10,561 bases of DNA from Campylobacteraceae bacterium (GTDB lineage: Bacteria; Campylobacterota; Campylobacteria; Campylobacterales; Sulfurovaceae), in contig JALUKJ010000209.1 of the NCBI GenBank assembly GCA_027056615.1, positions 1 through 10,561 on the forward strand, written 5' to 3'. A model generated the notes under the pieces. It had not been told where the DNA came from. It was given only the letters and a program-made list of their open reading frames with translations, and made no database searches. Position 1 is the first letter of the stretch. Each line of letters opens with the position of its first letter. The position numbers and the translations under genes are program-made. Below, piece by piece: positions 988-2,123 of the stretch.

Positions 988-1530
988 ATGTCAACATTAA
1001 CACAAGAAGAGAGAGAGATTATAGAGTCAAGCATTAGAGATATTCCAGATTTCCCCAAAAAAGGAATTGTTTTTAAAGATATTACTACCATTTTAAATAA
1101 CCCTAAAGCATTTCAAACACTTATGAATCACCTAACTAAACGTTACAAAAGTTACAATTTAGACTATGTAGCAGGTATAGATGCTCGTGGTTTTATTTTC
1201 GGTGCTATCTTAGCTGATAGATTGGGCATAGGTTTTGTACCTATTCGAAAAAAAGGAAAACTACCCTATACGACTGTTTCTGAAAAATACTCATTAGAGT
1301 ATGGTTTTGATGAAGTAGAAGTACACATTGACGCTTTTCCAAAAGAGAAGGCAAGAGTTTTACTTATAGATGACCTAATAGCCACAGGAGGAACAGCTAA
1401 AGCAGGTGTTTCACTTATTGGGAAAGTTGGTGCTACTTGTGTAGAGGCTTGTTTTATTGCTGAGTTGGACTTTTTAAAAGGGCGTGAGGGGATTGAAAGT
1501 GAGGTCTATTCTGTTTTGCATTTTGAGTAA
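988..1530 (+). CDS. apt: Adenine phosphoribosyltransferase
   Basis: Apt salvages adenine by joining it to PRPP to make AMP and pyrophosphate in the cytoplasm. The 180-residue product is the usual family length. It has the N-terminal [18 protein letters not shown] block (17-34), the [11 protein letters not shown] base-pocket segment (62-72), the flexible-loop region RKKGKLP (87-93), and the PRPP-binding motif [14 protein letters not shown] (124-137). I start at the ATG at 988 because an AAAGG ribosome binding site lies 7 bases before it and the conserved N-terminus begins there. The open frame continues upstream to 880, but that part overlaps the divergent pyrH start and the promoter and would add 36 non-conserved residues. 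It is monocistronic: its 3' side is a long region carrying repeats. Confidence 0.96.
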
Positions 1531-1537
1531 TAAATTG

Positions 1538-1574
1538 CGTAGGTGTTATTATCTCATATATGCGTCAACTTAAG
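1538..1574 (+). repeat. Left arm of an outer, degenerate inverted repeat
   Basis: The arm starts CGTAGGTGT (1538-1546), an exact inverse match to ACACCTACG at 1826-1834. The similarity continues inwards with CATATATG and TCAA-(2)-TAAG, with two small indels, over 37 bases. It lies 30 bp outside the left REPIN arm. Confidence 0.55.
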
Positions 1575-1603: not shown

Positions 1604-1747
1604 TGTAGGTCGGGTTGCCCTCATCCCGACATCAATTGATATAAATAAATATTTTATCGTTCAATATATATTTGCCAATTTTGTTTTGTTCTATCAAGTT
1701 TTCAATTTATGTATGTTTATGTCGGGATGAGGGCAACCCGACCTACA
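1604..1747. mobile_element. REPIN-like element: two inverted REP units (GTAG plus hairpin)
   Basis: The arms 1604-1632 and 1719-1747 are perfect 29-bp inverted repeats around an 86-base AT-rich centre, 144 bp in all. Each arm is itself a REP-type unit. The left one starts with GTAG (1605-1608), followed by the stem GTCGGG (1609-1614) and CCCGAC (1625-1630) around a 10-base loop. The right one is its mirror, ending in CTAC (1743-1746). A 5' GTAG next to an imperfect palindrome is the signature recognised by REP-associated tyrosine transposases (RAYT, IS200/IS605-like), and inverted REP pairs (BIME/REPIN) are the units they spread. The arms are far more GC-rich than their surroundings. No transposase gene is in the window, so it would be non-autonomous. 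Confidence 0.8.
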
Positions 1748-1797: not shown

Positions 1798-1834
1798 CTT
1801 AGATTGACATATATGTGACATGGTCACACCTACG
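1798..1834 (-). repeat. Right arm of the outer inverted repeat, with a small hairpin
   Basis: It mirrors 1538-1574. It contains a 6-bp stem, TGTGAC (1814-1819) and GTCACA (1823-1828), with a 3-base loop, followed one base later by CTAC (1830-1833). Read on the minus strand this is again GTAG followed by a hairpin, the same architecture as a REP unit but with different sequence. Confidence 0.5.
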
Positions 1835-2048: not shown

Positions 2049-2123
2049 TGGCTCCGGATGTAGGATTCGAACCTACGACCAAATGATTAACAGTCATCTA
2101 CTCTACCACTGAGCTAATCCGGA
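2049..2123 (-). tRNA. tRNA-Asn (anticodon GUU), copy 1 of the tandem
   Basis: This has the same 75-nt cloverleaf as the neighbouring copy, with no differences, encoded CCA and anticodon GTT. It is the promoter-proximal gene. A strong promoter lies about 40 bp upstream (2162-2190), and the spacer to the second copy is 25 bases, so the pair is probably transcribed as one precursor. Confidence 0.97.

Follow-up and report, generated by a model that had tools for sequence, protein, structure and literature searches.

The element lying between apt and two tRNA-Asn genes in the stretch of DNA analysed here (10,561 nucleotides in full; hereafter the window) is very probably a nest of mobile repeats, in which a REPIN of the family REPIN_A is carried by a non-autonomous MITE of the IS231 type (IS4 family) that landed at a hairpin of a second REP type, REP_B. 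Positions 1604-1747 are a true REPIN and a member of a repeated family. The features of the region, with the MITE parts named according to this reading, are as follows.

988-1530, plus strand: apt (adenine phosphoribosyltransferase), upstream of the element; an open reading frame that we take to be apt from its sequence; relatives share 58-93% amino-acid identity
1539-1554, plus strand: degenerate remnant of the second REP type, REP_B (GTAGGTGT...), with 6 mismatches to GTAGGTGTGACCATGTCACAC at 1539-1559
1555-1574, plus strand: left terminal inverted repeat of the MITE, IS231-type (CATATATGCGTCAACTTAAG), 2 nt longer than in sister copies
1575-1603, no strand: left inner part of the MITE, which ends in TTGGAAACGG and recurs in copies at different sites and in different species
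1604-1632, plus strand: left REPIN arm, with the REP_A core at 1605-1630 and a GTAG tag
1633-1718, no strand: core of the REPIN, flanked by the arms; sister copies have it in one orientation or the other
1719-1747, minus strand: right REPIN arm, with the REP_A core at 1721-1746 and a GTAG tag
1748-1797, no strand: right inner part of the MITE, with matches elsewhere to the query 1748-1816
1798-1815, minus strand: right terminal inverted repeat of the MITE (reverse complement CATATATGTCAATCTAAG)
1813-1833, minus strand: REP_B hairpin, differing from GTAGGTGTGACCATGTCACAC at 1 position; REPs of this type also adjoin the RAYT genes of loci L068 and L073
1949-2023, minus strand: tRNA-Asn (gtt), converging with apt
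2049-2123, minus strand: tRNA-Asn (gtt), an identical second copy

The arm at 1604-1632 and the reverse complement of 1719-1747 were identical at 29 of 29 positions, and on extension the arms paired at 88% across 43 nt. A GTAG tag stands at the outer end of each arm, which reads from the outside inwards T-GTAG-GTCGGGTTG-CCCT-CATCCCGAC; the G+C content is 59% in the arms and 34% in the whole window. An earlier note on this DNA had described perfect 29-bp inverted arms with outward GTAG, situated between converging transcription units, and both observations hold, with apt on the plus strand (988-1530) and the two tRNA-Asn genes on the minus strand. That note had missed a weaker, outer inverted repeat (1538-1574 and 1798-1834, 76% complementary). 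The tandem tRNA-Asn genes are identical over 78 bp (1949-2026 and 2049-2126), and a search of the window against Rfam yielded nothing beyond three tRNAs.

None of 200 shuffles folded as well as the element, either as DNA (z -10.0) or as RNA (z -10.9). Such a very stable RNA fold, together with the position between convergent genes, would suit a structure kept for its function, as a bidirectional terminator or as a stabiliser of the 3' end of the apt mRNA. This explanation is nevertheless very unlikely, given that a simple scan of 1400-2250 found no terminator-like site, that the element is missing from the same gap in four relatives and that it occurs at other, unrelated sites; an effect on the host could be a by-product. 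Regarding the relatives, one or two tRNA-Asn genes stood beside apt in five of the 12 apt loci scanned for tRNAs. The apt-tRNA-Asn gap was short and without the element in four of these (L097, L098, L099 and L101), and in the fifth (G020) it contained a REP_B-like hairpin.

The arm core GTAGGTCGGGTTGCCCNCATCCCGAC gave 18 matches at up to 3 mismatches in the host assembly (G000), against none for the reversed-pattern control. It was present in 20 of 60 genomes (host included), every one of them in the genus of the window, and in none of the 26 genomes outside that genus. The stretches examined held 113 REP_A matches, which formed 43 head-to-head dimers with outer lengths of 105-227 bp (139-150 bp in 35 of the 43); 107 of the 113 matches start with GTAG, a feature that the search favoured. 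In an alignment of 33 rows, found by similarity to four REP_A variants, hairpin covariation exceeded that of all shuffles, yet one slid control equalled it (0.118 vs 0.116). The unit at 1604-1747 thus combines inverted REPs, outward tags, a short spacer and a hairpin with a copy number above chance. With 18 copies in the host, and with RAYTs that have matching REPs (see below), the arm is neither single-copy nor without a matching RAYT, the combination on which the earlier note had said its reading would fall.

Four REPINs of the host are borne on a common outer shell, on contigs C209, C220, C199 and C173 (the last two cut by contig ends), and further REPIN_A copies of the host lie outside such shells. 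When the search was made with the surrounding DNA, similarity to other copies extended past the REPIN arms, which ruled out the REPIN as the entire mobile unit. Copies on seven contigs, and more, have the same joints and the same outer parts. In the window the REPIN sits within a shell of 261 bp (1555-1815), whose two inverted ends follow the pattern CATAYGCGTCAACYTAAG; the left one, 1555-1574, is longer by 2 bases, and the right one is 1798-1815. The right end of the shell (query 1748-1816) gave 14 matches in six of 19 genomes, and 13 of the 14 adjoin REPIN_A; the sole exception is a partial match without the shell end. A MITE with a closed joint and without the REPIN was found in none of the 19 genomes (exact pattern), so the step of REPIN capture was not seen.

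These data bear on the simpler possibility that a RAYT alone inserted 1604-1747 and that the common flanks reflect a preferred target only. Many REPIN_A copies do lie outside the shell, some of the shell-less copies (L065, L072, L124 and L181) carry a TTGGAAACGG-like stretch before GTAG, and no target duplication was seen at the window copy. About 50 bp on each side plus the outer inverted ends, some with duplications, are however common to different sites, and the right shell end adjoins the REPIN in nearly all of its matches; insertion of the plain REPIN is accordingly considered a poor prospect, with a very low probability. The stretch just 5' of GTAG in the shell-less copies (L065 at 1581, L072 at about 1485, L124 at 124, L181 at 366) is TTGGAAACGG-like or TTGGAAACGGC-like, and the TTGGAAACGGC-like form occurs before GTAG also beside RAYT-A genes. 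A second common set of flanks (AAAATCTCGCC.AAAGGCT... and GGGAACAAGGGC..AGC.CT) was observed at the REP_A dimers of L191, L192, L193, L200, L203, L205 and L211, loci which belong to G030, G032 and G033; it is perhaps another carrier element.

According to the passages cited here from PMC2266710, the ends of the IS231 subgroup (IS4 family) have the form CAT-------AA--TAA---, and its direct repeats measure 10-12 bp. By eye, the sister-copy end CATAYGCGTCAACYTAAG and the right end of the window copy agree with this consensus at 8 of 8 fixed positions, and the left end of the window copy fits only when its 2 extra nucleotides are left out. Eight two-ended copies were examined by eye for target duplications. 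Exact duplications were found at three of them, of 12 bp in G006:C46, 12 bp in G029:C446 and 11 bp in G030:C21 (loci L139, L185 and L199, respectively); the flanking repeats of G011:C14 match at 9 of 11 positions, and no target duplication was seen at the window copy, C220, G032:C216 or G030:C42. The 18-base end occurs in at least 117 stretches of named genomes from many phyla, Sulfurovum sp. bin170 included. Among 80 of these loci that were examined, 25 contain a total of 26 inverted pairs. Three of the pairs span the length of an insertion sequence and code for IS4-family transposases scoring over the curated cut-off, and the rest measure 67-550 bp; ten of the 26 pairs have exact duplications of 9-11 bp, within palindromes by eye. 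IS4-family elements with the same ends were found at L264, L269 and L278, in other phyla. Its ends, the direct repeats at some copies and the IS4-family elements that share those ends lead us to read the shell as an IS231-type MITE.

It is highly improbable that the shell is instead the long terminal inverted repeat of a TIR-flanked tyrosine transposase (TIRtron). Long TIRs are known for such elements, some of them fusing degenerate GTAG units to other stem-loops (in the passages cited from PMC3733652), but the 11-12-bp direct repeats at three copies, the agreement with the IS231 end consensus and the occurrence of these ends on elements that encode IS4-family transposases all speak against it, as does the absence of a shell end (up to 3 mismatches) from all 52 Y1 loci examined. 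At 3 mismatches the outer-end pattern is largely a chance match in AT-rich DNA (the reversed control also matches), and follow-up was confined to matches with 2 mismatches or fewer. G011:C115 (L221) has no REP adjoining and was taken as a chance AT-rich match. The DDE genes of eight incomplete genomes were considered as the source of the MITE and rejected: DDE_Tnp_1 gave 19 matches in five of the eight, none with shell ends nearby, several of these loci being cut by contig ends. IS231-type ends are widespread across phyla (e.g., L286, L290, L295 and L323), and four MITEs of 214 bp sit within palindromes in a single Verrucomicrobiia genome. The G029 copy (L182) and a contig of Sulfurovum sp. 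bin170 (L291) are alike at the shell end and beyond; the genus of the window therefore includes genomes listed as Sulfurovum by NCBI.

Hairpins of other REP families frequently adjoin the shell ends. The window copy has REP_B on its right and a degenerate REP_B on its left, and other REP-like hairpins abut the shell at C220, C199 and in G006. Since the hairpins next to a given shell end differ from one sister copy to another, the idea that a REPIN_B simply encloses REPIN_A was ruled out. At one host site (G000:C105; L157, from 1456) the two shell ends stand 24 bases apart, without REPIN or inner shell, beside a REP_B-like hairpin.

The Y1_Tnp family was present in 42 of the 60 genomes, with several kinds of Y1 protein mixed therein. 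At least two matching GTAG hairpins were found at 14 of 19 short-RAYT loci, a label that for the 19 loci is based on length and motif, the profile scan having covered five short proteins. The corresponding counts were 0 of 15 for IS200-type, 1 of 12 for long-Y1 and 2 of 19 for DDE loci, and 0 of 28 for loci brought by the apt-tRNA search (apt being visible in 24 of the 28). The 19 loci comprise 17 of a set of 20 stretches (L079, L082 and L083 left out) plus L212 and L213, and L072 was scored as a miss, though variant REPs flank it on both sides. All five short proteins scanned (L064, L065, L068, L076 and L077) scored 144-154 bits against NF047646 (REP-associated tyrosine transposase; cut-off 80), the L064 protein reaching 147 bits, and the nearest solved chain to the L064 protein was 4er8, TnpArep (E 1e-20). 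A long Y1 protein (72.9) and the fragment on host contig C224 (55.6) fell below the cut-off; the C224 Y1 gene was rejected as the cognate RAYT, being of the longer class, below that cut-off and without a REP_A match on its contig.

In the protein tree, REP types A, B and C track RAYT clades (support 100/99, 100/100 and 98/97, respectively); the two RAYTs of REP type E form no supported clade, and L213 dropped out of the tree. Clade-A RAYTs adjoined by the REP type of the window are those of G024:C25, G030:C46 and G002:C128, and a further homologue that also adjoins it, in G022:C46, is absent from the tree. In close relatives, RAYT genes with matching REPs beside them were found at L064, L065, L212 and L213. 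Among 120 homologues listed for the clade-A protein, two are named Campylobacterota bacterium and Sulfurovum sp. The RAYT-A of the host survives as a C-terminus only, where contig C101 breaks off, and a REP variant lies about 40 bases past the stop. The earlier note's proposal of a REPIN with its own RAYT therefore stands as regards the family and the matching RAYT in relatives, and in the host its counterpart is this contig-edge fragment with a variant REP. Movement by a RAYT, as that note has it, would apply to the REPIN family; the unit here is about 1555-1815, not 1604-1747. Because the mobile unit of the window copy is an IS231-type MITE carrying a REPIN, a RAYT probably did not bring it to its present site. 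The RAYT stop codon TAG falls in the GTAG of the adjoining REP at L065, L066, L073, L074, L080 and L081. L079 (G024:C86), outside the RAYT set, encodes a different Y1 protein of 190 aa, and GTAG hairpins of its own (GTAGGGGCAGAGCC...) surround it.

The centre of the REPIN is not simply variable, as the earlier note had it: it measures about 90 bp, is common to copies and occurs in both orientations. Comparison of 11 full cores (the window itself, for which 1631-1720 was used as the core, and L195, which has the left shell half only, included) gave six in one orientation and five inverted, the latter in three genomes (G006, G030 and G032). One pair of sites is informative on how this arose. Between host C220 and G030 C42 the left host flank is 88% identical over 245 columns, and the shell halves are 96% and 97% identical, whereas the core matches at 62% forward and at 93% inverted. 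In the two species alike, the left flank contains the end of one and the same gene, and it was found nowhere else among the loci examined; past the right end of the shell the sites are unlike, so the orthology of the pair rests on the left side. The difference is read as an in-place inversion of the core between two species. No flip was seen in the 12 other dimer pairs matched by flank (some of them RAYT flanks rather than host sites, and one, L130/L202, with cores too diverged for their orientation to be judged).

An assembly artefact of fragmented drafts is an unlikely source of the inverted cores. Misassembly would be favoured by the full or near identity of the arms, by the fragmented state of the assemblies (that of the host has 467 contigs) and by the difference within the flipped pair past the right shell end. 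Inverted cores were however recovered repeatedly and from three different genomes, and in the flipped pair the left flank, both shell halves and the inverted core all match well. The flip is most simply explained by recombination or template switching between the arms, and action of the RAYT is possible.

Taken as a nest of mobile repeats, the element may have arisen as follows. REPIN_A, two inverted GTAG REPs around a core of about 90 bp, would be copied in trans by a putative clade-A RAYT, which presumably moved one REPIN_A into an IS231-type MITE. An IS4-family transposase would then have moved the composite into palindromic sites, the window composite landing at a REP_B between apt and tRNA-Asn, and at some sites the core may have been flipped later by recombination or template switching between the arms. 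A composite of two transposases, in which the RAYT copies the REPIN, a DDE transposase moves a MITE that homes on REPs, the REP families seed one another and the RAYT itself inverts the core in place, an unrecognised activity, is quite unlikely. REPINs are generally held to depend on their RAYT alone. If the reading as a nest of mobile repeats is true, a REPIN on a REP-landing MITE would have another way to spread, which could account for REP mosaics, and in-place inversion between the arms would offer a direct way to ask whether inserted REPINs are acted on by RAYTs or by plain recombination.

Searches of the literature, covering open-licence papers, returned nothing for REP-associated tyrosine transposase with Epsilonproteobacteria, no REPIN in an IS231-type or IS4-family MITE that itself lands in REPs, and no in-place inversion of a REPIN core; Sulfurovum with REPIN returned PMC3733652 alone. 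According to the cited passages of that paper, GTAG REPs occur in all proteobacterial divisions, with epsilonproteobacteria and Sulfurovum included, so that for this lineage, in which the earlier note had called a REPIN family worth characterising, GTAG REPs have been in print, for Sulfurovum by name, since 2013. The GTAG REP families described there are like the present one in head-to-head dimers, RAYT-specific REP types and TAG stops supplied by GTAG, and some GTAG dimers lie inside long palindromes, as here, but in those passages the palindromes are neither identified as IS231-type nor said to carry dimers to new sites. The REPINs and RAYTs of Pseudomonas fluorescens, as presented in the cited part of PMC3116915, resemble the present system in their pairs of inverted REPs around a spacer, their large number of copies and the RAYT dependence proposed for them, whereas here the lineage and the REP sequence are different, the copy is carried by a transposon and the core stands either way. 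The RAYTs flanked by REPs in PMC2817692 are alike in having GTAG-type REPs beside a Y1 gene, often directly behind the stop codon, but the passages cited from that paper name no epsilonproteobacterial case and no carrier transposon. With the IS231 subgroup of the IS4 family, to the extent that the cited passages of PMC2266710 describe it, the shell shares the end consensus and, at some of its copies, direct repeats of such length, and differs in its size of about 261 bp, in having no transposase gene and in the REPIN inside. ISRm22, an IS4-family element, is alike in targeting REPs, as stated in the cited part of PMC1525189, but is a full insertion sequence, whereas the MITE described here both abuts REPs and carries one.
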